Positions 2,942-26,618 of a stretch of DNA of 27,097 bases are shown piece by piece. A program made the translations under genes and the position numbers. Source of the stretch: a virus; the IMG/VR virus record IMGVR_UViG_3300021085_000173, positions 1 to 27,097 of that record; one strand, 5' to 3'. The notes under the pieces are model-generated. The model was not told where the DNA came from. It did not search any database and saw only the letters and a program-made list of their open reading frames with translations. Every line of letters starts with the position of its first letter. Position 1 is the first letter of the stretch.

Positions 2942-3688
2942 ATGAACACACAAGAAATTAAAAGAGGAGAGTACATTGCTTATTACCCAATAAGTAAATT
3001 AAAAATGGCAACAGTAAATAGAGATACTGTAACAAAACACGCATATAATTTTAAAGAAAAATTAAATGATTACGGATGGATGATGCCAATAATAGCATCT
3101 GCAAATGGAGATGTTATAGAGGGACATCATAGAATACATAGTGCTAAACTTTTAAAACAAAAAACTATACCTGCTTACATTGTTGATTGGGTTAATACAA
3201 ATAAAGAAGCAGATCATTTAAAAGCTATTATTAGTTTGAACAATGGAAATAAAGCGTGGACTACTGCTGATTATTTAAAATCATTTGCAAGGGATAATGA
3301 AAATTATAAAGTAGTTTATGAAGCACATCTAAAAAATATAAACAATATTTCTGTTGGTAATGTTGTAAATTGTTTCTTTGGAAAAACAAAAGGAGCTGGA
3401 TTTAAAAGAGGTACATCTAAAATAATAGATTTAAAATTCTCTTTATACCTTTTAGAAAAAATATCTTTTTTAGTTGCTAAACACGGAAAAAGAAAGATAC
3501 AGGCATACTGCGTTAGAGAAATGATTAATATCGGTTTTGTAGCAGCAAAAAGAAATATTAAAACAATGGATTTCTTATTTAATGAGTATGATAAAATGGC
3601 GATTGAAAACAATGGTGTTTTAACATCTATAACATCATTTAAACCAACTATGGAACTTTTCTTAAAATTAAGTCCTAAATCTAAATAA
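2942..3688 (+). CDS. ParB/Spo0J N-terminal domain protein
   Basis: 248 residues. Residues 13-82 match a ParB-like fold: YYPISKLKMATVNRD, then the box DVIEGHHRIHSAKLLKQKTI (58-77) containing the nucleotide-binding G-x-H-R motif (EGHHR, 60-64). The remaining 160 residues are helical and basic and do not resemble the usual ParB HTH. Phage members include CTP- or ATP-binding regulators and nucleases such as osmotically-induced nuclease-type proteins. The C5 methyltransferase follows after one base, so the two are probably co-expressed and may work together on DNA modification. Confidence 0.75.
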   Translation: MNTQEIKRGEYIAYYPISKLKMATVNRDTVTKHAYNFKEKLNDYGWMMPIIASANGDVIEGHHRIHSAKLLKQKTIPAYIVDWVNTNKEADHLKAIISLNNGNKAWTTADYLKSFARDNENYKVVYEAHLKNINNISVGNVVNCFFGKTKGAGFKRGTSKIIDLKFSLYLLEKISFLVAKHGKRKIQAYCVREMINIGFVAAKRNIKTMDFLFNEYDKMAIENNGVLTSITSFKPTMELFLKLSPKSK

Positions 3689-3689
3689 T

Positions 3690-4331
3690 ATGAAAATACT
3701 AAATCTATATGCTTGTTTAGGTGGTAACAGATACAAGTGGAACGAAGTAAAAGAAGATATAGAAGTAACAGCTATTGAACTTGACCCAGAAGCTGCAAGG
3801 TTGTACCAAGAACGTTTTCCGAATGACAAAGTAGTTGTAGCGGATGCACACCAATATTTACTTGACCATTATAAAGAATTTGATTTTATATGGAGTTCCC
3901 CTCCTTGTCCAACGCATAGCAGATCAAGATTTGCAAGGCACGAAACAACAACATCTGTTTATCCAGATATGAAGTTATACCAAGAAATACTATTATTGGA
4001 CAATTACTTTAAAGGAAAATATGTGGTTGAGAATGTTATCCCTTTTTATACTCCTTTAATACCTGCTAAAAAAAGAGGTCGGCATTTATATTGGACTAAC
4101 TTTAATTTACCTAATGATGTTGGAGAAAGAAAAGGTGGTATAATGGAGGGAAAAGATGAGGTTACCCAATGGTGTAAGTTTCATAACTACGACTTTAGAA
4201 AATACAAAGGAAAACAATCAACACAAAAAATGGCAAGAAACCTTGTGGATTATGAAGTTGGTAAAAAAATATTTGAAACAGCTTTAGGTATTATTAGAAA
4301 ACAAGACATTAAACAAACAGAATTATTTTAA
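3690..4331 (+). CDS. Compact C5-cytosine DNA methyltransferase
   Basis: 213 residues, clearly shorter than the 300-400 typical of Dcm-type enzymes. Motifs in order: I, LYACLGGNRYKW (7-17, SAM binding); II, AIELDPEAA (acid at 30); III, VVADAHQY (about 50-55); IV, SSPPCPTHSRSR (69-80) with catalytic Cys73; VI, VVENV (Glu114); VIII, KKRGRHLYW (127-135). Only about 75 residues remain for target recognition and motifs IX-X. It would methylate cytosine at C5, probably protecting phage DNA from host restriction; no cognate restriction gene is adjacent. It follows the ParB-like gene with a one-base gap. Confidence 0.85.
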   Translation: MKILNLYACLGGNRYKWNEVKEDIEVTAIELDPEAARLYQERFPNDKVVVADAHQYLLDHYKEFDFIWSSPPCPTHSRSRFARHETTTSVYPDMKLYQEILLLDNYFKGKYVVENVIPFYTPLIPAKKRGRHLYWTNFNLPNDVGERKGGIMEGKDEVTQWCKFHNYDFRKYKGKQSTQKMARNLVDYEVGKKIFETALGIIRKQDIKQTELF

Positions 4332-4817: not shown

Positions 4818-4834
4818 AACTATATACTAATATG
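4818..4834 (+). promoter_or_regulatory. Late control motif, copy 1 (packaging operon)
   Basis: AACTATATACTAATATG; the last three bases are the start codon of the ParB-like gene at 4832. It is one of five copies of WACTATATAYWWATATG in the window, all with identical spacing to a start codon. It lies in the 28-base gap that separates the early genes from the terminase operon. It may be a phage-specific promoter with TATATA as the -10 element, or a translation signal. No conserved upstream element is obvious. Confidence 0.6.
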
Positions 4835-5284
4835 CAACTAATAAACATTCAAGAGGTTAGACCTAATGAAAACAATCCAAGATTTATAAAGGATTACAAA
4901 TTCAAGAAACTTGTAAAATCTATTAAGGAGTTCCCAGAGATGTTAAAGTTAAGACCTATCGTAGTAAATAAGGATATGGTTGTGCTTGGTGGGAATATGC
5001 GTTTAAAAGCGTGTAAGGAAGCAGGACTTAATGAAGTGTGGATTTTAATAGCTGATGAATTAACAACAGATCAAGAGAGAGAGTTTATAGTAAAAGACAA
5101 TGTAGGTTTTGGAGAATGGGATTGGGATGTATTAGCAAACGATTGGAATGGTCAGCAAGTAGACGATTGGGGATTAACAGTAGTACCATTTGAAGATAGT
5201 TTAGAAGAAGTATTAGAAAAACAAATAGCGAAACAAGATAAGGAAACAAACACTTGTGAAGTGTGTGGTAAAAATGTAATATGA
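4832..5284 (+). CDS. ParB-like protein preceding terminase
   Basis: 150 residues. The ParB-like domain spans about residues 1-75: LINIQEVRPNENNPRFI, then LRPIVVNKDMVVLGGNMRLKACKEAGL with the G-G-N-M-R box (53-57). Residues 80-115 (TDQEREFIVKDNVGFGEWDW, then DVLANDW) are typical of the ParB-like proteins found beside phage terminases and DNA methylases. The C-terminus ends in CEVCGKNVI, a CxxC that may be half a metal site. The stop overlaps the terminase small subunit start (ATGA). This position suggests a role in packaging or DNA recognition, but the biochemical activity is not known. Confidence 0.75.
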   Translation: MQLINIQEVRPNENNPRFIKDYKFKKLVKSIKEFPEMLKLRPIVVNKDMVVLGGNMRLKACKEAGLNEVWILIADELTTDQEREFIVKDNVGFGEWDWDVLANDWNGQQVDDWGLTVVPFEDSLEEVLEKQIAKQDKETNTCEVCGKNVI

Positions 5285-5646
5285 AAGAAAACCAAAACAG
5301 AACCGAACACCATAAAAAAGCAATCATAGAAGCGTTGGAAAAATCTTTAGGGGTTGTCACAACTGCTTGTAAGATAGCAGGTGTAGGTAGAACTCAATTT
5401 TATCAATGGTTAAAAGATGATGAAGTATTTGCAAGACAAGTAAAAGATGTAGAGAACATAGCTTTAGATTTTGTAGAGAGTAAGTTGTTTGAGAACATAA
5501 GAGATGGTAAAACATCTGAAACTATATTTTATTTAAAAACAAAAGGTAAGGGTAGAGGTTATGTAGAAAGACAAGAGATAACTGGAGCTGATGGAATGCC
5601 TACTAAATTTGAAATAGAAATAATAAAGCGTGAAGATAAAAACTAA
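5281..5646 (+). CDS. terS: Terminase small subunit
   Basis: 121 residues with an N-terminal helix-turn-helix at about 20-46 (GVVTTACKIAGVGRTQFYQW), followed by acidic helices (VKDVENIALDFVESKLFENI) that in terminase small subunits form the oligomerisation core. The C-terminal GADGMPTKFEIEIIKRED resembles the tail segment that contacts the large subunit in several phages. Start and stop overlap the ParB-like gene (ATGA) and the large terminase (17 bases). It would recognise phage DNA and load it onto the motor. Context and HTH make this secure, though the family is divergent. Confidence 0.85.
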   Translation: MKENQNRTEHHKKAIIEALEKSLGVVTTACKIAGVGRTQFYQWLKDDEVFARQVKDVENIALDFVESKLFENIRDGKTSETIFYLKTKGKGRGYVERQEITGADGMPTKFEIEIIKREDKN

Positions 5647-6784
5647 TGTTGTTTTCGAACATCTTTTAAATTCAGACAAGAAGATTACAATAGAGCAGGG
5701 AGGAACAAGAAGTGGAAAAACCTATAATGTTCTTTTATATATTATCTTTAAATACTGTTTAGAGAATACAGGTAAGACAGTTACAATATGTAGGAAAACA
5801 TTCCCAGCTGTTCGTAGTTCTGTTATGCGTGATTTTTTAGATATACTAAAGCAGTATAAATCATATTCAGAGTTAAGCCACAATAAGTCAAACCACGAGT
5901 ACAAACTAAACGGAAACCTTATTGAGTTTATTTCTTTAGACCAACCACAAAAGGTAAGAGGTAGGAAAAGAAACTTACTATTTATAAATGAAGCAAACGA
6001 ATTAGATTACGAAGATTGGCAGCAGTTAATCTTTAGAACAGAAGATAAAATAATTCTTGACTTTAATCCATCGGATGAATACCATTGGATATATGACAAG
6101 GTAATACCACGAGAAGATGCCGATTTCTATATTACTACTTATTTGGATAATAGCTTTCTTAATAAAAGCATTACTGAAGAAATAGAACGTTTAAAGGAAA
6201 CAGATGAAACCTATTGGCAAATTTATGGATTAGGTTTGAAAGGTGTTTCTAAAGCTACTATATTTAATTACACAGAAGTAAACCACATACCACACGATGC
6301 AGAGTTTATAAGCTATGGAGCAGATGCAGGGTACTCCAATGACCCAACTACTTTAGTTTCTGTTTATCGTAAAGACCACAACCTATATATCAAAGAACAT
6401 ATATACCAAACACAAATGACTACCTACGATATTAGCAGGAAGTGGAAAGATATAGGTATTGAAAGAGAATTGATTTACTTTGATAGTGCTGAACCAAGAT
6501 TAATCGAGGAGTTAAGAAGAATGGGTTTTAATGTACGACCAAGTTTAAAAGGTGCTGATAGTATCAACGCAGGGATAGACCTCTTAAAACGTTTTAAAAT
6601 ACATATAGAGAAAGACAGTCATAATTGCATACAAGAGTTTAGAAACTACAAATGGCAAGAGGACAGATCTGGAAAGATGATAAACAAACCAGTAGATAAA
6701 AATAACCACACAATCGATGCGGTCAGATACGCTACATATTCTGTATTAAGCAAACCTAACTTTGGAAGATACGCTATACAATAA
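5630..6784 (+). CDS. terL: Terminase large subunit (ATPase-nuclease packaging motor)
   Basis: 384 residues. The Walker A motif is GGTRSGKT (24-31). The Walker B motif with catalytic Glu is LLFINEANEL (116-125), and IILDFNPS (141-148) is the following coupling motif. The RNase H-like nuclease domain shows acids at Asp232 (GADAGYSNDPT), Asp285 (FDSAEPRLIEEL) and Asp363 (NHTIDAVRYA). This is the PBSX/Terminase_3 type. The only possible start in this frame is GTG at 5630, because a stop lies just upstream (TAA 5624-5626); the ATG at 5646 is out of frame. It translocates DNA into the prohead and cuts it. A hairpin terminator follows. Confidence 0.95.
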   Translation: MKIKTNVVFEHLLNSDKKITIEQGGTRSGKTYNVLLYIIFKYCLENTGKTVTICRKTFPAVRSSVMRDFLDILKQYKSYSELSHNKSNHEYKLNGNLIEFISLDQPQKVRGRKRNLLFINEANELDYEDWQQLIFRTEDKIILDFNPSDEYHWIYDKVIPREDADFYITTYLDNSFLNKSITEEIERLKETDETYWQIYGLGLKGVSKATIFNYTEVNHIPHDAEFISYGADAGYSNDPTTLVSVYRKDHNLYIKEHIYQTQMTTYDISRKWKDIGIERELIYFDSAEPRLIEELRRMGFNVRPSLKGADSINAGIDLLKRFKIHIEKDSHNCIQEFRNYKWQEDRSGKMINKPVDKNNHTIDAVRYATYSVLSKPNFGRYAIQ

Positions 6785-6842: not shown

Positions 6843-6859
6843 AACTATATACTTATATG
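6843..6859 (+). promoter_or_regulatory. Late control motif, copy 2 (tail operon)
   Basis: AACTATATACTTATATG ends in the ATG (6857) of the tail chaperone gene, 18 bases after the terL terminator. It differs from copy 1 at one position. The placement between a terminator and the first gene of the tail block is what a promoter would require. Confidence 0.65.
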
Positions 6860-7501
6860 AAAGTCGATTTAATAGTACCTAATAGTTTAAACGAAGTTAC
6901 TTTAGGACAATACCAAGAGTATTTAAAACTAAAGGATTTAACAGAAACACAACTATCATTCAAGATGATTGAAATATTTTGTGGGGTTAAAGCTGAATAC
7001 GTTAGGTTATTAAAAGCAAGTGATGTTACAGATATTGTAAATATAATGTCTGCAATGTTTGAAAGCAAACCAAGTTTAGTACACACCTTTAAAATGGGTG
7101 GTGTTGAGTATGGGTTTATTCCTAACCTTGATGAGATGAGTTTTGGAGAATATATTGACCTTGATACCAGTATAGGAGATTGGGATAATATGAACAAGGC
7201 AATGGGTGTGTTATACAGACCAATAGAAATGAGAAAAGGAAACAGGTACACTATAAAGGAGTACGATGCAGGAGATACAGAGCATTTAAAAGATATGCCA
7301 TTAGATGCTGTAATCAGTTCTATCCTTTTTTTTTATCATTTAGGGAACGAATTGTGTCAAATTACGATGAACTCTTTGGAGCAAACGGAGGAAACACTCT
7401 TACAAGAGTATCTCAATTCGGAACAAAGTGGGGTTGGTACTCAAGCGTTTATGCTCTCGCTCAATCAGATATTAGACGATTTGAAGATATCACTAAATTA
7501 A
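6857..7501 (+). CDS. Tail assembly chaperone, zero-frame product
   Basis: 214 residues. The N-terminal part (MKVDLIVPNSLNEVTLGQYQ) and central FIPNLDEMSFGEYIDLDTSI, then GVLYRPI, resemble a family I associate with the gene upstream of the tape measure in Bacteroidota phages. After residue 156 the frame passes through nine T (7326-7334) and continues to a stop at 7499-7501. An overlapping -1 frame encodes a better-looking C-terminal domain up to 7596. This is the layout of G/GT-type tail chaperones, in which a minority of ribosomes slip to make a longer protein. Both products would coat the tape measure during tail assembly. The preceding late motif fixes the start. Confidence 0.75.
   Translation: MKVDLIVPNSLNEVTLGQYQEYLKLKDLTETQLSFKMIEIFCGVKAEYVRLLKASDVTDIVNIMSAMFESKPSLVHTFKMGGVEYGFIPNLDEMSFGEYIDLDTSIGDWDNMNKAMGVLYRPIEMRKGNRYTIKEYDAGDTEHLKDMPLDAVISSILFFYHLGNELCQITMNSLEQTEETLLQEYLNSEQSGVGTQAFMLSLNQILDDLKISLN
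7327..7333 (+). promoter_or_regulatory. Candidate -1 ribosomal frameshift site (T TTT TTT)
   Basis: In the zero frame the codons are ATC CTT TTT TTT TAT from 7322. The heptamer T TTT TTT (7327-7333) lets both tRNAs re-pair after slipping back one base. The -1 frame is open from here to 7596. I see no convincing downstream stem-loop or pseudoknot. Confidence 0.55.
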
Positions 7502-7596
7502 AAATGCACGAATGTTTATTATTTCTAACGTTTGAAAAAGAGAAACAAGAAATAGAGGCAAGTAATATAAAAAATAAATTCAATGCAGGGAATTAG
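7333..7596 (+). CDS. Tail assembly chaperone, -1 frame C-terminal extension
   Basis: This is the -1 reading frame relative to 6857-7501. Read from the T-run it gives 87 residues, and a fusion of about 246 residues (159 from the zero frame plus 87). The only independent start is a GTG at 7354. The sequence contains FGTKWGWYSSVYALAQSDIR and LTFEKEKQEIEASNIKNKF, a Trp-rich, helical, compact domain like the T part of tail chaperones and clearly protein-like. It overlaps the zero frame by about 170 bases, too much for two independent genes of this size. It ends 14 bases inside the next gene. Confidence 0.65.
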   Translation, partial: LSFRERIVSNYDELFGANGGNTLTRVSQFGTKWGWYSSVYALAQSDIRRFEDITKLKMHECLLFLTFEKEKQEIEASNIKNKFNAGN

Positions 7597-8050
7597 AGGT
7601 TTTTACCAATTAACGGAAACAATAAAAGAGCAGCTACTAAATGATGTAAATGTCAATACTGTAACTACTGGAGATATAACAGAAATAGATTTATCTAAAC
7701 AAACTATATTCCCTTTAAGTCATATTATTGTAAACAACGTAATCACAGAAGAACAATATTTGTCTTTTAACATTACAGTTATGGCAATGGATATTGTAGA
7801 TGAAAGTAAAGAACCTACAACAGATATATTTAGAGGTAACGACAATGAGCAGGATGTACTGAATACTCAATTAGCAGTATTAAATAGATTGACAATGTTG
7901 TTAAGAAAAGGAAACTTGCATAGTGATTTATACCAGTTAGATGGTTCCCCTAATTGTGAGCCATTCTATGAAAGGTTTGAAAACAAGTTAGGTGGTTGGG
8001 CGTGTACCTTTGATGTATTTATTCAAAACGATATTAATATATGCAACTAA
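7583..8050 (+). CDS. Putative tail completion/terminator protein
   Basis: 155 residues, alpha/beta, starting MQGIRGFYQLTETIKEQLLN. The order helix, strands, FPLSHIIVNN..., then repeated strands (YLSFNITVMAMDIVDE; GGWACTFDVFIQND) resembles small tail-terminator or head-tail joining proteins (gpU/gp17-like), which share an initial helix and a five-strand sheet. It lies between the tail chaperone and an HK97 gp10-like gene, a usual place for such proteins. Its start overlaps the -1 extension and its stop overlaps the next gene by 10 bases. The name comes from context and fold pattern, not a clear family match. Confidence 0.55.
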   Translation: MQGIRGFYQLTETIKEQLLNDVNVNTVTTGDITEIDLSKQTIFPLSHIIVNNVITEEQYLSFNITVMAMDIVDESKEPTTDIFRGNDNEQDVLNTQLAVLNRLTMLLRKGNLHSDLYQLDGSPNCEPFYERFENKLGGWACTFDVFIQNDINICN

Positions 8051-8589
8051 AAGAAACGCAGATAGCTTTAAATAAGTTTGCTAAATATGTTATACAACAA
8101 AGTAGAAGCAGATTAACTAAAGGTAGAAAAAAATATGGTTCTTATAATGACACAAAGAAACTATATAACAGTTTAGATAGTGATATAAAAGTTTCTAAAA
8201 ATAGTTTTCAGTTAGAGTTTATGATGGAAAATTATGGTGTTTTTTTAGATAAAGGTGTAAAAGGTAAAACATCAAGTTCTAAAGCACCAAACAGTCCATT
8301 TAGGTTTGGTAGTGGTACAGGTAAAAAAGGTGGTTTAACAAATGGAATAAATAAATGGGTAAGAAGAAAAGGTTTTCAGTTTAGAGATAAGAAAGGTAGG
8401 TTTATGAGTTATGATAGTACCGCTTTTTTAATCAGTAGAAGCATATATAATAAAGGAACTAAACCAAGTTTATTCTTTACAAAACCATTTGAAAAAGCAT
8501 TTAAGAACTTGCCTAAAGAAATAGTTACAGCATACGCATTAGATGTAGAAAAACTTTTAGGTAATACAATAAAAGACAATTTAAAATAA
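8041..8589 (+). CDS. HK97 gp10-like neck/tail completion protein
   Basis: 182 residues, strongly basic (many Lys and Arg). The segment ENYGVFLDKGVKG (63-75) is the recognisable feature of HK97 gp10-like proteins (Y-x-x-x-L-(D/E)-x-G-T/V-K). A long loop follows, then ISRSIYNKGTKPSLFFTKPF and a C-terminal helix, also typical of family members with the long insert (GGLTNGINKWVRRKGFQFRD). Such proteins complete the neck or tail end during assembly. It overlaps the preceding gene by 10 bases. Confidence 0.7.
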   Translation: MQLKETQIALNKFAKYVIQQSRSRLTKGRKKYGSYNDTKKLYNSLDSDIKVSKNSFQLEFMMENYGVFLDKGVKGKTSSSKAPNSPFRFGSGTGKKGGLTNGINKWVRRKGFQFRDKKGRFMSYDSTAFLISRSIYNKGTKPSLFFTKPFEKAFKNLPKEIVTAYALDVEKLLGNTIKDNLK

Positions 8590-11793: not shown

Positions 11794-11936
11794 TAAAGAA
11801 TATATTAGATTTATTAAAGTTTGCAAAAGGAGAAACAGAGAGCATACAAATAGCACAGGGTAAATACAAGCTACCTATGACATTAAAAGAGGGGTACAAA
11901 GCAATAAAACAAGAAATAATATGGCAGAAAAAGTAG
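11790..11936 (+). CDS. Small conserved protein before tape measure (48 aa)
   Basis: ATG at 11790 overlaps the previous stop (ATGA) and TAG at 11934-11936 lies inside the tape measure start region, a 16-base overlap. The product begins MIKNILDLLKFAKGETESIQ and contains KYKLPMTLKEGYKAIKQE. It is helical and basic and has no known domain. Coding status is supported by double overlap and by the fact that it fills an otherwise empty 127-base gap between two large tail genes. Confidence 0.65.
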   Translation: MIKNILDLLKFAKGETESIQIAQGKYKLPMTLKEGYKAIKQEIIWQKK

Positions 11937-13780
11937 TAGTTGAATTAGAAGCTAAAACTGGTAAAGCAGAAGCAAGTTTACAAGACGTTGCTAATGCTAT
12001 TAAAGATATTGGTAAACAAAATGAAGAAGTAGTAAAAAGCCAATCTAAATTAGGTAAGGGCATTAAATCATTAGGTAAAGGTTTTAAAGGTTTAGGTCTT
12101 GCTATGAAAGCTGCTGGTTTTGCAATAATAATGAAAATTGTTGACAAACTTGGAGAAGCATTAATGAGAAACCAAGAAATTGCCGATACAGTTAATACTG
12201 TTTTTACTGCAATAGGGATTGTATTTAAACAAGTTTCTGATGTAATGTTAAATGTGTTTAAAAGCGTATCCGATGCTACTGGTGGTTTTGATGCTTTACA
12301 AAAAGTTTTAGGGGGTGCTTTAAGTATATCTATTAATCTTGTTGTAGGTGCTATTCAAGGTATGATGCTTGGAGTTAAGAAAGCACAATTAGCTTGGGAA
12401 GAGAGTTTTTTAGGAGATGGAGACCCAAAAACAATAAAGAGATTAAATTTAGAAATTGAAGAGGTTGGGAATAAGTTAGATGAAACTGGGGACAGAATTA
12501 AAAAAGCAGGTTCTGATATTTCTGATAATTTTATAGAAGCCGTAGGAGAAGTAGGGGAATTAGCCACAGGTGTTGCAGAGGGTGTTTCAAATGCTATTGA
12601 AAAAATAGATGTTAAATCTGCCTTTAGTCAAGCGAAAAGAGTTGTTCAAAACAAAAAGAATTATGGTTTATTAGAAGCACAAAGCCAAAGATTAATTGAG
12701 AAATATGATTTAGAAGCAGAAACACAAAGGCAAATAAGAGATGACGAAAGAAAGAGTGTAGCAGAAAGAATAAAGGCAAATGATGAATTGCTAAATGTTT
12801 TAAATAAACAAGCAAGTGAAGAAAAGAAAGCGATTGATATTCGTATTTCTGCATTACAAGAACAAGTAAGGTTAGAGGGAGAAAGTGCAGAATTAACTAA
12901 AGAGTTGTATGACCTTAATACTGAATTAATAGCTATTGATGCAAAGGTAGCAGGTTTTAAATCAGAACAATTAGTTAATGAGGCAGCTTTACAGAAAGAG
13001 AACATAGAACTTTTAAACACAAAAAAAGAGAGTGAAAATAAATTATCTTTAGAACAAAAAAGGTTTAATGCCGAGCAAATAGAAGATGAACTTTTAAGGT
13101 TAGAGAAATTAAAAGAGGTTGATGAATTAGAAGCTGAACAAGAAACTATTAGATTACAAGCAATAGTTGATAATGCAAATGCAGGGACACAAGCAAAGAT
13201 TGATGCCCAAATAGCATTAGATGAATTTACAAAACAATCAGAACAAACAAGTGTCACAAGGGCAAAAGAAATTTCAAAAGCAAAAATAGATATTGCTAAA
13301 AAAGAGGAAGATGCAAAAAAAGCATCTCTTAATGGTTATGCATCTGCTTTAAGCGAAATCTCTGGTGTTATTGGTCAAGAAACTGCTGCTGGTAAATCTA
13401 TTGCTATTGCATCATCTTTAGTGAATACTTATGCATCCATAAGTGGACAATTAAGTGCCTTTTCAAAAGTACCAGTGCCTGGTTATGCTATTGCACAAGC
13501 AATCGCTACTGGTGTTGTAGGTTTTGCGAATGTTAAAAAAATAGCAAGTGTAAAAATACCGAAATCAAGTGGTGGTGGTGGAGGTAGTGTTGGTTCTCCT
13601 CCATCTGCTACTGTGTCTACACCTCCTGCATTTAATGTTGTTGGTGCAAGTGATACAAACCAATTAGCGAGTGCAATAGGTAGCCAATCACAAGAGCCAA
13701 CAAGAGCATATGTGGTTTCTAATGATGTAACTACTGCACAATCAATGGATAGGAATATTGTAGATGGAGCATCTATTTAA
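11921..13780 (+). CDS. Tape measure protein
   Basis: 619 residues. An N-terminal helical region is followed by Gly/Lys repeats (LGKGIKSLGKGFKGLGLAMK) and a hydrophobic stretch (about 57-150) with AAGFAIIMKIVDKLGEAL and ISINLVVGAIQGMMLGV, which may cross the host membrane on ejection. A long Lys/Glu coiled coil occupies about 240-470. The end contains GKSIAIASSLVNTYASISGQ, VPGYAIAQAIATGVVGFANV and a GGGGGS linker. At the usual 1.5 Angstrom per residue it would set a tail of roughly 90 nm. It has no peptidase or transglycosylase motif. A short hairpin terminator follows. Confidence 0.85.
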   Translation: MAEKVVVELEAKTGKAEASLQDVANAIKDIGKQNEEVVKSQSKLGKGIKSLGKGFKGLGLAMKAAGFAIIMKIVDKLGEALMRNQEIADTVNTVFTAIGIVFKQVSDVMLNVFKSVSDATGGFDALQKVLGGALSISINLVVGAIQGMMLGVKKAQLAWEESFLGDGDPKTIKRLNLEIEEVGNKLDETGDRIKKAGSDISDNFIEAVGEVGELATGVAEGVSNAIEKIDVKSAFSQAKRVVQNKKNYGLLEAQSQRLIEKYDLEAETQRQIRDDERKSVAERIKANDELLNVLNKQASEEKKAIDIRISALQEQVRLEGESAELTKELYDLNTELIAIDAKVAGFKSEQLVNEAALQKENIELLNTKKESENKLSLEQKRFNAEQIEDELLRLEKLKEVDELEAEQETIRLQAIVDNANAGTQAKIDAQIALDEFTKQSEQTSVTRAKEISKAKIDIAKKEEDAKKASLNGYASALSEISGVIGQETAAGKSIAIASSLVNTYASISGQLSAFSKVPVPGYAIAQAIATGVVGFANVKKIASVKIPKSSGGGGGSVGSPPSATVSTPPAFNVVGASDTNQLASAIGSQSQEPTRAYVVSNDVTTAQSMDRNIVDGASI

Positions 13781-20475: not shown

Positions 20476-21753
20476 ATGGCAAAACCAAAATTAGCATTAA
20501 TACCAGCTGCACAAGGCACAAGTTTATACTCCGTACTACCATCGAGTGGTGTGGGAGATTTCAGCTTTACTCGTAGCGGTTCGGCAACAAGAATAAACGC
20601 ACAAGGACTAATAGAAACAGTTGCAAGTGGTGTTTCAAGATTAAACTACCCATTGATTGATGGTGTTGTAAAAGGATGTCCACATCACATTTTAGAGCCA
20701 CAGAGATTGCAGTTAGTACAGTATTCAGAAGATTTTAGTAATTCTTATTGGGGTACAGCAAGAATAGAAACGCCTTATATTGCAGATGTTTTATCGCCAG
20801 ATGGAACTTTAAATGCATATACTTTAGAAATATCAAGCGGACAAACTGGTGGCGGTGGAGTTTTTAAAGGATTATCTGTTACTGGAGATAATAGTTTTTC
20901 TGTATTTGCAAAGAAAAAAACTGCTAATTATTTAGCTTTAGGAGATACTGGATTAACAACTAATGCTGTTTATTTTGATTTAGAAAATGGAGTTGTAGGA
21001 ACTACATATAACGCAACTGGAGAGATACAAGATTTTGGTAATGGGTGGTACAGATGCACAATGAAATACACTTTAACATCTACTGGTAATAAATTTATCT
21101 ATTTATCAAATATAGATGGAACAATAATTGGCGGTGTTGTTGGTGGCGATAGTATTTACATATACGGCGCACAAATTGAAAGTGGTTCTTTTCCAACCTC
21201 TTACATTCCCAACTACGGAACTGCTGCTGGTGTTACTCGTTCAGCTGAAACTGCTACTGGTTCTGGAGATGCAGATACTTTTAATGATAGTGAGGGTGTT
21301 TTGATGGCAGAGATAAGTGCATTAGCTAATGATGGAATAAGAGTAATTACATTATCTAATGGAAGTAATGCGGAAAGAATACTTTTATCTTATAACCAAA
21401 ATGGTAGATTAGATGTAAATATTATTGAAAACGACAGTTATCAAGCTGTTTTTAATTACACAAATATAAATTCAATTGAATTTAATAAAATATTGATTTC
21501 TTATAAGCAAAATGATTTTAAACTTTGGTTAAATGGTTTTCAAGTAGGTAGTGTTGAAAATGGAAACACTCCAGTAGGTCTAAATACATTAAATTTTGGT
21601 GCAACTTATAATGCGTCTGTTGAATCTTTCTACGGTAACACTAAACAACTTCAATACTTTGACACTGCATTAACAAATAGCGAATTAGAACAACTAACGT
21701 CTTGGGTATCTTTTCAAGAGATGGCTGAAGGACAATTATACACAATAGAATAG
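20476..21753 (+). CDS. Fibre/lectin-like protein, paralog 1
   Basis: 425 residues, first of five related genes. The N-terminus (MAKPKLALIPAAQGTSLYSV; FSFTRSGSATRINAQGLIET) differs from the other four before the shared SATRxNxxGLIE block. Then comes a CBM-like jelly roll starting at YSEDFSNSYW (about 83-92), a hinge (TSYIPNYGTAAGVTRSAETA, GSG) at about 240-263, and a LamG/concanavalin A-like domain from about 264 to 405 with KILISYKQNDFKLWLNGFQV. The first block resembles phage head-spike or fibre N-terminal domains. Likely role: an exposed fibre that binds host surface glycans. It follows the small adhesin by five bases. Confidence 0.7.
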   Translation: MAKPKLALIPAAQGTSLYSVLPSSGVGDFSFTRSGSATRINAQGLIETVASGVSRLNYPLIDGVVKGCPHHILEPQRLQLVQYSEDFSNSYWGTARIETPYIADVLSPDGTLNAYTLEISSGQTGGGGVFKGLSVTGDNSFSVFAKKKTANYLALGDTGLTTNAVYFDLENGVVGTTYNATGEIQDFGNGWYRCTMKYTLTSTGNKFIYLSNIDGTIIGGVVGGDSIYIYGAQIESGSFPTSYIPNYGTAAGVTRSAETATGSGDADTFNDSEGVLMAEISALANDGIRVITLSNGSNAERILLSYNQNGRLDVNIIENDSYQAVFNYTNINSIEFNKILISYKQNDFKLWLNGFQVGSVENGNTPVGLNTLNFGATYNASVESFYGNTKQLQYFDTALTNSELEQLTSWVSFQEMAEGQLYTIE

Positions 21754-21755
21754 AT

Positions 21756-22949
21756 ATGGCACAAACTTTAAAATTCGGTAACGGAACTTGGGCAACTAAA
21801 AAGGGTTCTACTCTTGCTTATAATGATGAGGATGGAAACTATAAACCATTACCATTTACATATACTGGTGCTGGTAAAGGTACAAGAGTTAACAAAGAGG
21901 GTTTAATTGAGGTTGTAGAAAACGACAGACCAAGAATAGATTATTTAGATAGCGAAGATGGTGTATTTCTTTTGGAAAAGGCATCGACAAATTTGGTTAC
22001 TTATTCAGAAGATTTTAGTAATGCTGCTTGGACTAAAACTGGAGCAACTACTGTTGCATCTAATACAGTTATTTCTCCAGATGGTAATTTAAATGGAAGC
22101 ACAATAAGCGGTTTAACTGGTAGTGGTAGTAATGATATTTATTTTATAACTGGAGTAAATCCAGCAAGTAAAACATATTGTGCATCGGTTTATTTAAAAG
22201 GAGAGGGTACGTTGCGACTACAAACATCAAACAACGTAAATCAAGGTATTTCTAAAACTATTACTCTAACAAGCAACTGGAAAAGACATTCAGTTATAGG
22301 AACTTTTAATTCTACATCTGGTAATTTATCAGTTACAATCGATGACACTACTGCAACTGCTACTCAATTTGATATTTGGGGAGCAATGCTTGAGGAAAAT
22401 TCAATAGCATCTTCATACATCCCAACACAAGGCACAATCCAAACTAGAGTGGCTGAAACTGCAAGTGGTTCTGGAAACTCGGAAGTATTTAATAGTTCAG
22501 AGGGGGTATTGTTTGTAGAAATGAGTGCTTCTGATAATAATTCAAGAATATCATTAAGTGATGGAAGTACAAGCAACAGAGTATCTTTTAAAATTACTGA
22601 TGATAATATAGATTTTCAATACAGAGTAGGAGGGAATTATTCATATAGAGTAAATGTGGATGTAAATAATTATTTAAATAATAAGATACTAATGTCATAT
22701 AATAATGGGTTATTTGTTGGTTATTTAAACGGATTTCCTATAAGTAATAAAATTAGTGGAGTTTCTTTAGCTGATGGGGTTGTAAATAGGTTAAATCTAA
22801 ATGATGGAGATGCTTCCGATGGTTTTAAAGGTAGGATAAAAGAAATTGGCTACTACGATGAAATTTTAACAGACGAAGAATTGGAGTATATGACAAGTTA
22901 TAGGTCATTATCAGCAATGTTAAAAGAATTAAATATAAAAGCATTATAA
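21756..22949 (+). CDS. Fibre/lectin-like protein, paralog 2
   Basis: 397 residues. It shares with paralogs 3-5 the start TLKFGNGTWATKKGSTLAYN and the block VNKEGLIEVV (46-54). The CBM-like domain is at about 82-215 (YSEDFSNAAWTKTG; VISPDGN), the hinge at 216-240 (IASSYIPTQGTIQTRVAETA) and the LamG-like domain at about 241-365. The C-terminal 35 residues (DEILTDEELEYMTSYRSLSA, then MLKELNIKAL) are nearly identical to those of paralog 3. The middle is divergent. The 3' end forms part of a direct repeat with the paralog 3/4 junction. Confidence 0.7.
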   Translation: MAQTLKFGNGTWATKKGSTLAYNDEDGNYKPLPFTYTGAGKGTRVNKEGLIEVVENDRPRIDYLDSEDGVFLLEKASTNLVTYSEDFSNAAWTKTGATTVASNTVISPDGNLNGSTISGLTGSGSNDIYFITGVNPASKTYCASVYLKGEGTLRLQTSNNVNQGISKTITLTSNWKRHSVIGTFNSTSGNLSVTIDDTTATATQFDIWGAMLEENSIASSYIPTQGTIQTRVAETASGSGNSEVFNSSEGVLFVEMSASDNNSRISLSDGSTSNRVSFKITDDNIDFQYRVGGNYSYRVNVDVNNYLNNKILMSYNNGLFVGYLNGFPISNKISGVSLADGVVNRLNLNDGDASDGFKGRIKEIGYYDEILTDEELEYMTSYRSLSAMLKELNIKAL

Positions 22950-23187
22950 AATGGCAAAACAATTAAAATTTGGTAATGGAGAATGGTATGGAGCAGATGG
23001 CTCTATCCTTGCATACAACGATTTAAACGATAACTATAAGCCACTTCCTTTCAAATTTGAGCGTGGAAGTTCAGCAACAAGAGTAAATAAAGAAGGGTTG
23101 ATTGAATTAGTTGGTAGTAATCAACCAAGAGTAGATTATAAAGACAGTAGTGATGGTGTGTTTCTTTTGGAGAAGGAAGCTACAAAT
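22857..23187 (+). repeat. Direct repeat copy A at the paralog 2/3 junction
   Basis: This covers the 3' end of paralog 2, the one-base gap and the first about 79 codons of paralog 3. It matches 24064-24394 at an offset of 1207 bases with about nine mismatches by eye. Similarity drops sharply beyond both ends, where the variable domains begin. Confidence 0.8.
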
Positions 23188-24156
23188 TTAGTTAATTATA
23201 GTAGTGATTTATCCGTTCTGTCTAAAGTATCAGTAGGAACTGCATCTTCCCCAGTTGCAACTGCAAATTACGATATTGCACCAGATGGAACAATGACTGC
23301 AACGAGAGTTGTTTTTGATTTAAACGGAGGCAATACATATAACGATAGAAGTATATTAAGACAAGCTATACCAGTAGGTAGTAATTATTACTTTTCTATT
23401 TATGTAAAAAGTACAAATGGAACAGAACAAAAAGTTTTTTGGCACGATGGAGGAGAAGTAACGCCAGTAACAGTAACTAATGAATGGAAAAGAATTACTT
23501 ATGACGCAAGAAGTAATGTATCTTATGGAGGAATTGCTTTAAATGGATTAGATGGTGTAGATACATCTGACATTTTAGTATGGGGTTTTCAAATAGAAAC
23601 TGGAAACGTAGCATCTTCCTACATCCCAACCTCTGGCTCAACAGTACAACGTGCTGCTGAAACCGCTTCTGGTTCTGGTAGTTCTGGAGTTTTTAATGAT
23701 AGTGAGGGAATTCTATATGCCAACATAGCTGCGAATGCTGATGATTCAACTTATAGAAGTATAAGTATCAATAATGGCTCAACATCAAACTATGTACAAA
23801 TAGGGTTTGACTCATCTGGTTCAAATAAAATATTTGGTAACATTAGACCAAGTGGTAGTTCTTTTTCAGTAACTACAAGTAATATAGTCAATTTTAATAA
23901 GGTTTTAATAAAATATAAAGTTAATGATTGCTCTCTTTGGATTAATGGATTCGAAGTTGGTATTGACTTAAACGGAGTAGTTCCTTCTGGATTAAATGAA
24001 TTAGGTTTTGATACTGGAGGTGTTGCAACTTGGTATGGTAAAGCAAAAGAAATAGCATACTATGATGAAATTTTGACAGATGAAGAATTGGAGTATATGA
24101 CAAGTTATAGGTCATTATCAGAAATGTTAAAAGAATTAAATATAAAAGCATTATAA
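22951..24156 (+). CDS. Fibre/lectin-like protein, paralog 3
   Basis: 401 residues with the same layout: anchor module (MAKQLKFGNGEWYGADGSIL ... SATRVNKEGLIELV), CBM-like domain, hinge (SSYIPTSGSTVQRAAETASG, SG) and LamG-like domain ending in VLIKYKVNDCSLWINGFEVG. Its first about 80 residues are nearly identical to paralog 4 and its last 35 to paralog 2, while the middle matches neither. It is therefore a cassette-like mosaic. It starts one base after the paralog 2 stop. Function as an adhesin or fibre is inferred from the domain types. Confidence 0.7.
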   Translation: MAKQLKFGNGEWYGADGSILAYNDLNDNYKPLPFKFERGSSATRVNKEGLIELVGSNQPRVDYKDSSDGVFLLEKEATNLVNYSSDLSVLSKVSVGTASSPVATANYDIAPDGTMTATRVVFDLNGGNTYNDRSILRQAIPVGSNYYFSIYVKSTNGTEQKVFWHDGGEVTPVTVTNEWKRITYDARSNVSYGGIALNGLDGVDTSDILVWGFQIETGNVASSYIPTSGSTVQRAAETASGSGSSGVFNDSEGILYANIAANADDSTYRSISINNGSTSNYVQIGFDSSGSNKIFGNIRPSGSSFSVTTSNIVNFNKVLIKYKVNDCSLWINGFEVGIDLNGVVPSGLNELGFDTGGVATWYGKAKEIAYYDEILTDEELEYMTSYRSLSEMLKELNIKAL

Positions 24157-24394
24157 AATGGCAAAACAATTAAAATTTGGTAATGGCGAATGGTATGGAG
24201 CAGATGGCTCTATCCTTGCATACAACGATTTAAACGATAACTATAAGCCGCTTCCTTTCAAATTTGAGCGTGGAAGTTCAGCAACAAGAGTAAATAAAGA
24301 AGGGTTGATTGAAGTAGTTGGTGGTAATCAACCAAGAATAGATTATAAAGACAGTAGTGATGGTGTGTTTCTTTTGGAGAAGGCAGCTACAAAT
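24064..24394 (+). repeat. Direct repeat copy B at the paralog 3/4 junction
   Basis: This covers the 3' end of paralog 3, the one-base gap and the 5' end of paralog 4, matching 22857-23187 almost base for base, including the intergenic AAATGGC context. Synonymous and conservative changes dominate the few differences, which implies a recent duplication or continuing recombination. Confidence 0.8.
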
Positions 24395-25441
24395 TCAATT
24401 ACTTATTCGGAAGATTTTAGTAATTCAGTATGGAGTACTTGGCAATCAACTAAAACATTATCAAATAACATTAATCCAAAAGGAACAAATGGTTACTACG
24501 AAATTTCACATACTGGAAGTTCATCAGATAATCCAAATACAAGATTAACAAATGTTTCTTTAAATGGTTCTTATACGTTAAGTTTCTTTATTAAAATAAA
24601 TCAGTCAAGGTATATTTCTTTATCAATAGAAGATTATAATGGAGATAGAGCAAGAGTGTACTTTGATACAATAAATAAAACATTTACAACAATTAGTAAT
24701 GTAGGTTCTCCTATAACTAATACATCTTATAGTGAATTTTCAAATGGTTGGATTAGAATATCACTATCAGTAAACTTATTAAATGCAGTTTACGATGAAG
24801 TAGGTATAGGTATATACAACCCAAGTGGTTCTTTTCCATCTGCAAGTGGAGAAGTTATTTCTGTTTTTGGAGCAATGATTGAACAAGGCAGTTACGCATC
24901 TTCATACATCCCAACACAAGGTTCTACTCAAACTCGTTTAGCTGAAACTGCTAATGGTTCTGGTAGTTCTGGAGCGTTTAATGATAGTGAAGGTGTACTA
25001 TTTGCTAATATACAAGGATTAAATGAAGTTTATAGATTAGGTATTTCAGAAAATGCATCAACCTCTAATAGAATTTTAATAGGTCAAAGTAGTAGCTTTT
25101 TATCATATGTAGTTACCTCTGGTTCAACACCAGTTGTAAATAATAATGTTAGTGGATATGGATTAAATCAAAAATTAAAAATAGCTGCTAAATACAAGCA
25201 GAACGATTTCGCTTTATGGGTAAATGGTTTTGAGGTTGTTACAGTTTCAAGTGGTAATACACCAACTAATTTAAACTCATTAGATTTTAAGGGTCAAGGG
25301 GCTAATGCTTACATAAAAACAAAAGAATTAGCATACTATGATGAAGTTTTGACAGACCTTGAATTAGAAACGCTTACATCTTACAGAACTTGGGAAGAAA
25401 TGGTAAACGAATTAAACTTAAATATTATACACAATGAGTAA
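24158..25441 (+). CDS. Fibre/lectin-like protein, paralog 4
   Basis: 427 residues. The anchor module is almost the same as in paralog 3. The CBM-like part begins YSEDFSNSVWSTWQ and is longer (about 25 residues more). The hinge (ASSYIPTQGSTQTRLAETAN) contains a 26-base stretch (24896-24921) identical to paralog 2. The LamG-like part includes LKIAAKYKQNDFALWVNGFE. The C-terminus (YYDEVLTDLELETLTSYRTW) has diverged from paralogs 2 and 3. The stop overlaps the next start by 8 bases. Confidence 0.7.
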   Translation: MAKQLKFGNGEWYGADGSILAYNDLNDNYKPLPFKFERGSSATRVNKEGLIEVVGGNQPRIDYKDSSDGVFLLEKAATNSITYSEDFSNSVWSTWQSTKTLSNNINPKGTNGYYEISHTGSSSDNPNTRLTNVSLNGSYTLSFFIKINQSRYISLSIEDYNGDRARVYFDTINKTFTTISNVGSPITNTSYSEFSNGWIRISLSVNLLNAVYDEVGIGIYNPSGSFPSASGEVISVFGAMIEQGSYASSYIPTQGSTQTRLAETANGSGSSGAFNDSEGVLFANIQGLNEVYRLGISENASTSNRILIGQSSSFLSYVVTSGSTPVVNNNVSGYGLNQKLKIAAKYKQNDFALWVNGFEVVTVSSGNTPTNLNSLDFKGQGANAYIKTKELAYYDEVLTDLELETLTSYRTWEEMVNELNLNIIHNE

Positions 25442-26618
25442 TACACTTAAACTGGGTAACGGACAATGGGCAACTGGTAAAGATACCTTGCTTGGGTACA
25501 ATTCAGAAAATAACAATATAAAGCCATTACCCTTTTCATTCAGCAGAGATAGTAGTGCTACTGTTGTAAACAAAGATGGTTTAATCGAAACTGTTGGTAG
25601 TGGAAAACCAAGAATAGATTTTAAGGATAATACTAAAGGTGCTTTGTTGTTAGAGCCAGAGAGGAGAAATATAGTTTTAACAAGTGCAAGTGGTACTTAT
25701 GGTAATAATCCAGCATCTGAAACAAATATAATTTCTCCAGATGGCACAAACAACGCAGTAATACCAACCCCCAATGGTAATTCTGATAGATACCAATACA
25801 CAATAAGCGGAGGAACATATTCTACAAACACAAAACTGGCTTATTCTTGGTATAGAAAAAGAATATCCACACCTATTGATGTTTCTAAAATAGGAGATTT
25901 ACTTTTAGCTTCTATACAAAACGCTACACAAGTAGGTTCAACAACTAAAATAGAAAGTGATGTAAATGGTTTTGATAGATTTCAAGCTATTTTTAATATA
26001 ACTGATGGTTCTGCTACAAGTATTATTAGAGGGTATTTTGGTTCAGTTTTAGGTATAGGTAATTCATCAGTTGCTTACTGGGGACACCAAGTCGAACAAG
26101 GCAGTTACGCTACATCGTATATTCCTACATCTGGAAGTGCAGTAACGAGGGTTGCAGATAGTTGTAGTAATGGTGCTAATGACCAAGTAATAAATTCAAC
26201 AGAGGGTGTATTGTATTATGAAGCAACTTATATTGATGGAAGTGATTATAATTCCATAACTGTTTCAAATTCATCTGGTTCTGAAAAATCAAGAACTTGG
26301 TATGATGATACTAATTTAATTTTTGCAAGTTATGTTAATAATGTTAATCAAACATTTATAGCATATCCTATTTTTAAAAATATAAATTATAAAATAGCTA
26401 TAAGATATAAGTTAAATGATTTTGCTTTGTATGTAAATGGAAATAAAGCAACAAATATAGTGGTAAATTTAGGTGGTGTTTCTCCACAAAATTCATACAA
26501 TAAATTAAGTTTTAATAGTGGAGATATTTATAGTAAATTCTTTGGAAACATAAAAGATTTAAAATTATACAACACCGCATTAACAGACCAAGAATTAATT
26601 GCATTAACAACAATTTAA
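25434..26618 (+). CDS. Fibre/lectin-like protein, paralog 5
   Basis: 394 residues and the most divergent of the anchor-sharing group: MSNTLKLGNGQWATGKDTLL, FSRDSSATVVNKDGLIETVG, CBM-like middle with SPDGTNNAV, hinge (YATSYIPTSGSAVTRVADSC, SNG) and LamG-like domain with IAIRYKLNDFALYVNGNKAT. It ends shortly after LYNTALTDQELIALTTI, lacking the extra 20-25 C-terminal residues of paralogs 2-4. The ATG overlaps the stop of paralog 4. It is the last member of the array. Confidence 0.7.
   Translation: MSNTLKLGNGQWATGKDTLLGYNSENNNIKPLPFSFSRDSSATVVNKDGLIETVGSGKPRIDFKDNTKGALLLEPERRNIVLTSASGTYGNNPASETNIISPDGTNNAVIPTPNGNSDRYQYTISGGTYSTNTKLAYSWYRKRISTPIDVSKIGDLLLASIQNATQVGSTTKIESDVNGFDRFQAIFNITDGSATSIIRGYFGSVLGIGNSSVAYWGHQVEQGSYATSYIPTSGSAVTRVADSCSNGANDQVINSTEGVLYYEATYIDGSDYNSITVSNSSGSEKSRTWYDDTNLIFASYVNNVNQTFIAYPIFKNINYKIAIRYKLNDFALYVNGNKATNIVVNLGGVSPQNSYNKLSFNSGDIYSKFFGNIKDLKLYNTALTDQELIALTTI

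Follow-up and report, generated by a model that had tools for sequence, protein, structure and literature searches.

Genes and reading frames at the locus

The DNA analyzed here (the window) was one strand of 27,097 nt, covering positions 1 to 27,097 of the IMG/VR virus record IMGVR_UViG_3300021085_000173. The features that concern the slip site and its surroundings are given below with the evidence for each.

5630..6784, + strand: terminase large subunit (terL), the conserved upstream neighbor (Pfam Terminase_3, 6e-26; synteny)
6857..7501, + strand: 0-frame ORF encoding the short product (G-like), 214 aa (PHROG 32199, E 2.5e-22; AlphaFold2 model)
7326..7334, + strand: T9 run, the slip site, codons CTT TTT TTT TAT (sequence and homologs)
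7327-7333, + strand: in-phase heptamer T_TTT_TTT inside T9 (sequence)
7333, + strand: doubly synonymous base (TTT>TTC in the 0 frame, TTA>CTA in the -1 frame), unchanged in all same-layout homologs
7327..7596, + strand: -1 frame from the slip site, an 87-89 aa domain predicted to be all helical, with a KWGWY motif; C-terminal part of the putative long product (GT-like)
7334..7501, + strand: overlap of 56 codons with selection on both frames (synonymous codon differences from ~0.5 to 0.09-0.37)
7583..8050, + strand: 155-aa protein, the conserved next gene, possibly a tail terminator (PHROG 30964; synteny)
8041..8589, + strand: 182-aa neck/tail-completion-like protein (PHROG 29822; weak PHROG 5, tail completion or Neck1)
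11921..13780, + strand: probable tape measure protein (PHROG 21537, virion structural, 5.7e-10; PHROG 9483, tape measure, 0.0026)

The T9 run lies in the zero frame of ORF 6857-7501, where the original prediction had placed it, and no other T run of eight or more was present in the 27-kb window (68% AT), which makes it unlikely to be a chance feature. The -1 frame was open from about 7189 and stopped at 7594-7596. It had been predicted to stay open to 7596 and to encode a tryptophan-rich domain; both were confirmed, and the predicted helical domain was conserved in homologs. The fused long product would be about 246 aa. The ORF listing of the window also agreed with the prediction that GTG at 7354 is the sole start for a separate -1 ORF. 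A detail absent from that prediction was that the 0 frame continues for 56 codons beyond the slip site, to 7501, and that this tail is conserved as well.

The recoded gene was located directly after terL and four genes before the tape measure gene, and this order was conserved in both the near and the far clades of homologs. Its predicted position beside terL is thus a property of the whole family. Unlike in the lambda-type arrangement, the gene is not located between the major tail protein and tape measure genes.

Other genes of the window were noted in passing. Five tandem paralogs of ~400 aa at 20476-26618 have a common N-terminus (...LKFGNG.W....LAYN....KPLPF.F.R...ATRVNKEGLIE) and probably encode tail fibres or adhesins. 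By the ORF text alone, two nearby ORFs (2942-3688 and 4832-5284) are ParB-like, and a cytosine methylase-like ORF (3690-4331) lies between them.

Conservation of the T run and of both frames

The first homolog set was obtained by a scan of viral contigs and confirmed by tblastn, which gave 80 relatives with 52-90% identity. For the close homologs that reached the site (n = 79), the run was intact in 79/79, and the site read NTT TTT TTT TAY in all but one, which had TTT TTT TTT TGG. The -1 frame was open wherever the sequence sufficed, the +1 frame was not open, and the 0-frame product was 213-217 aa long.

Further scans were then added. Two used a query ending before the site, so that the harvest had no site bias; one used a conserved-motif query, and one used a T8+ pattern. 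The enlarged set contained 287 unique near genes and 80 far-clade genes, with few common to both. Among distinct homologous genes reaching the site, with protein identities as low as about 27%, 362/362 had a T run of at least nine. Only T9, T10, or T12 were seen, and none of the 362 genes had a T7 or T8 site. The apparent exceptions (three near, one far) proved to be genes cut by a contig end; on re-reading, L106 and L118 both had T9, and L043 and L367 ended before the site. The near tree showed 14 changes in run layout, with no drop in run length below nine. The alignment of homologs that had been suggested as a check for a conserved slippery site thus gave a run kept in every gene.

The hosts of the homologs were Bacteroidota as far as they are known, on the evidence of the Nonlabens phages' own host and of MAG contigs from Winogradskyella and Flavobacteriaceae, in agreement with the Bacteroidota-type phage setting that had been proposed. 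One contig binned as a Euryarchaeota MAG (L208, PBGL02000003) bears this phage gene and is probably a misbinned phage of Bacteroidota.

The -1 frame was examined in 360 genes. It was open for 61-95 codons beyond the run in 347; the remaining 13 were open for <60 codons and were counted as cut by contig ends. Gene pairs with 50-75% identity were then compared at codons for the same residue. Upstream of the site, such codons differed in about half of the comparisons. At the L-F-F codons of the site, the synonymous differences were 0/982, 0/2336, and 0/2336, respectively. Same-residue codon differences fell to 0.09-0.37 in the overlap, and in the -1 frame they rose modestly beyond the 0-frame stop, from 0.25 to 0.32.

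We considered whether the -1 ORF is a separate gene, started independently at GTG 7354 by reinitiation or coupling. The window does contain this GTG, and phage P12024S was deposited with the parts annotated as two genes. However, no ATG, GTG, or TTG preceded the KWGW motif in the -1 frame of 252/347 genes, no ATG did so in 329/347, and the positions of the start codons were not conserved among homologs. In addition, a conserved LSFR(E/D) stretch follows directly after the run, upstream of the GTG. The original prediction had named frames that are always separate with good starts as an outcome that would count against it; the homologs had no good separate start. The independent start is largely refuted already, and we consider it very improbable.

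The other such outcome was a misread T10, a sequencing or assembly error that would turn the locus into one continuous gene. Homopolymers are error-prone in general, but T9 recurred, in a constant relation to both frames, in isolate phage records and in hundreds of contigs that had been assembled independently and came from different metagenomes. Moreover, the homologs with T10 or T12 runs were phased such that the 0 frame still yielded the short product, and the end of the 0 frame was conserved. An error is even harder to credit than an independent start.

The -1 frame open in 347 genes, 252 of them without a start, and the suppression of synonymous change at the site and in the overlap indicated that the two frames are joined. 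A joined product is almost certainly real, as judged from gene sequences. The comparison establishes, at that level, that the frame changes, that it does so at this site in the -1 direction, and that both products are under selection. The predicted programmed -1 frame change was therefore upheld by homolog conservation and synonymous suppression as real, selected, and in the -1 direction.

The T run together with the sequence TTTAGG was also considered as a terminator or packaging site. This candidate was rejected, as TTTAGG is free to vary wherever the -1 protein permits it (L209, far clade), whereas the T run does not vary.

Polymerase or ribosome slippage at the run

We propose that one gene gives two proteins with the first 156-159 residues in common. 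The 214-aa short product would come from ordinary reading, and in a minority of cases expression would enter the -1 frame at T9 and yield a product of ~246 aa with a helical C-terminal domain. The frame would be changed in transcription, with RNA polymerase inserting an extra U into the run (U9 to U10), and not by backward slippage of the ribosome on U_UUU_UUU. We give a two-product gene whose frame is changed by RNA polymerase slippage an even chance of being correct.

The same two-product chaperone gene could instead use classical -1 ribosomal frameshifting on U_UUU_UUU, as lambda G/GT or P2 E/E+E' do. The in-phase T_TTT_TTT is present in every gene, and a strict U_UUU_UUU requirement accounts for almost all observations; the two extra T's could come from the codons of hydrophobic residues preceding FF and of the Tyr or Trp that follows. 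In E. coli, U_UUU_UUU shifts at >0.1% without a stimulator (PMC4066793). The well studied TACs (tail assembly chaperones) shift at the ribosome, and known TACs use low-rate ribosomal shifts (PMC5009743), with 6-7% in an HK97-like cluster (PMC3711429). However, the heptamer follows from any run of at least nine, whereas a run of nine does not follow from the heptamer; the observed conservation therefore demands more than the heptamer. The absence of any T7 or T8 site speaks against ribosomal slippage in the same way.

Base 7333 was used as a test. T>C at this base is silent in both frames and leaves a U_UUU_UUC heptamer, which is grouped with U_UUU_UUU among the efficient motifs in E. coli (PMC4066793). 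In the near clade (tree of 214 same-layout genes), 0 changes were found, whereas six conserved Phe columns in these genes predicted 32.1 (P about 1e-14), and in the far clade 0 were found vs 9.2 expected (P 1e-4); with sites treated as independent and a FastTree topology, these P values indicate size and are not exact. Other doubly silent pyrimidine sites in the overlap were 32% C. TTC did occur at that codon in 8/47 near genes and in 6 genes of the far clade, all of which had an intact T10 immediately before it. The doubly silent change to the efficient U_UUU_UUC thus never occurs unless T10 is upstream, which argues against the ribosome. When 2.9 million viral contigs were searched for the T8-TTC form, there were only 2 matches, both unrelated terminator-like sequences, and no homolog; a narrower T9 pattern gave at least 119 matches in the same contigs.

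In a large fraction of bacterial genomes, nine is the length at which A or T runs are seen to be selected against (PMC1088944). Transcriptional realignment is known to occur at Tn with n>8 (PMC3711429), and transcriptional slippage makes use of T or A tracts this long (PMC5009743; PMC3711429). For the clade carrying TTT TTT TTT CTG, which might have separated polymerase slippage from a strict U_UUU_UUU requirement, a rate test was not significant (P 0.4) and is given no weight here, and an independent-pairs test on the layout of the run had two pairs only. RNAalifold analysis of 33 representatives detected no conserved RNA structure downstream of the site, a further point against ribosomal frameshifting. 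Lambda-type sites may not need a downstream stimulatory structure, which is optional in TACs.

The uninterrupted run of at least nine T's and a base 7333 that is never C in this layout favored polymerase slippage over a degenerate heptamer. We put ribosomal frameshifting somewhat below even. The original prediction had the T_TTT_TTT heptamer allow clean re-pairing. The heptamer itself stood, in phase in every gene; a ribosomal slip was not established, and the conservation exceeds what the heptamer needs. As a ribosomal -1 slip and an extra U would give the same junction peptide (...LFFLSFRE...), the mass spectrometry that had been suggested as a check cannot separate the two mechanisms. The wider claim, that a very widespread, so far unannotated family of marine phage TACs sets its short:long ratio by polymerase slippage on an obligatory T9+, falls only a little short of an even chance.

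Predicted folds, probable role, and known systems

The AlphaFold2 model of the short product was confident for residues ~1-165 (mean pLDDT 82.6). A long helix (149-190) spans the slip site, and the end is weakly ordered. The -1 domain was also modeled with confidence, as all helical (mean pLDDT 85.6). A search of the PDB for fold matches (Foldseek and a second look) gave nothing convincing for either the short product or the -1 domain. In BFVD, some 35 uncharacterized proteins of uncultured Caudovirales had the fold of the short product with 11-45% identity, and there was a weak match to one protein annotated as a TAC. For Phage_TAC_7 (Pfam), one member only was matched (E 0.01, 16.3 bits, under the cut-off of 25). 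PHROG 166 was matched weakly in 5/60 members, the best at 2.4e-4, and P2 gpE matches the same PHROG 166 at 4e-7. Comparisons by hhalign with individual TAC sequences from lambda, P2, HK97, and Mu were negative, and in the family searches none of the curated TAC families was matched significantly.

The TAC label of the original prediction was therefore retained in part. The weak Phage_TAC_7 and PHROG 166 matches and the two-product design agree with it, whereas the lack of a PDB fold match and the different gene position do not. On this evidence, with weak homology to known TACs, a TAC role is probable. Our best functional guess is that the gene works like a chaperone, with its membership of the G/GT family unproven. 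By analogy with lambda gpG/gpGT, many short copies would coat the tape measure protein, and few long copies would recruit the tail tube subunit.

A real two-product gene could also have another role, for example as a head-tail joining or packaging-linked factor. Its place after terL and away from the tape measure gene is conserved in the family, and the missing match to a curated TAC family would fit such a role. However, the gene has the weak PHROG 166 and Phage_TAC_7 links and heads an otherwise tail-like cluster that reaches the tape measure gene, and two products made by frameshift are widely conserved in the tail chaperones of long-tailed phages (PMC5009743). We regard another role as unlikely but worth keeping in mind; this estimate holds whichever of polymerase and ribosome does the slipping and does not sum with the other estimates.

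A fold-level relative was noticed in Flavobacterium phage 6H. Its gp10 (L438, 10047-10927) is located upstream of the tape measure gene and ends at TGT TTT TTC TAT. It is followed by an unannotated gap of 305 bases that is partly open in shifted frames. As a link to chaperones adjacent to the tape measure gene it was set aside, given a match at fold level only and ambiguous frames, although gp10 may itself be a further chaperone that is recoded.

Tail chaperones are well known to be made with programmed shifts, and transcriptional realignment on T9/A9 has been described for cellular and IS genes. In the literature searched (most subscription journals lay outside its scope), we found no report of a TAC made by transcriptional slippage and no paper on TAC frameshifting in flavobacterial phages. 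The present family adds a large unannotated group to the probable tail chaperones and corrects the annotation of phages whose records currently list two hypothetical ORFs at this locus. A base silent in both frames also lets ribosomal and transcriptional slippage be weighed against each other. If polymerase slippage is true, the best known frameshift of tailed phages would have been reached by a second, transcriptional route, and the product ratio would depend on the host polymerase, not on the ribosome.

The Nonlabens phages P12024S and P12024L have the same gene (genes 38/39 and 40/41) with the same neighbors, at about 30% identity (P12024S 31%). The P12024S site reads CTT TTT TTT TAT CAT TTA GGG AAC GA, the same nucleotides as the window over the slip site. 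A difference is that the 0 frame ends only about 20-25 codons past the site. In both records (JQ823122 23136-23830 for P12024S and JQ823123 23946-24640 for P12024L), the recoded gene was deposited as two unrelated hypothetical genes.

The systems of programmed transcriptional realignment (the Shigella mxiE T run, Thermus dnaX A9, and IS elements with A9; PMC1088944, PMC3711429, PMC5009743) are similar in that a homopolymer of at least nine A or T is kept among homologs and both frames are coding on either side. The present case differs in being a phage assembly gene known from gene sequences.

Similar to lambda gpG/gpGT, HK97 gp13/gp14, and P2 E/E+E', the two putative products here have a common N-terminus, with the longer form made by a low-level -1 shift near the 3' part of the first ORF and a small C-terminal domain coming from the second frame. 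P2 has a T-rich site as well, GGT TTT TTG. The gene here has no clear sequence or fold match to these TACs; theirs lies between the tube and tape measure genes, whereas the present one lies after terL. In P2, the first frame runs ~7 codons past the site, whereas here it mostly runs 28-60 codons and has a conserved end. A further difference is that the slip site here is an obligatory run of nine or more T.
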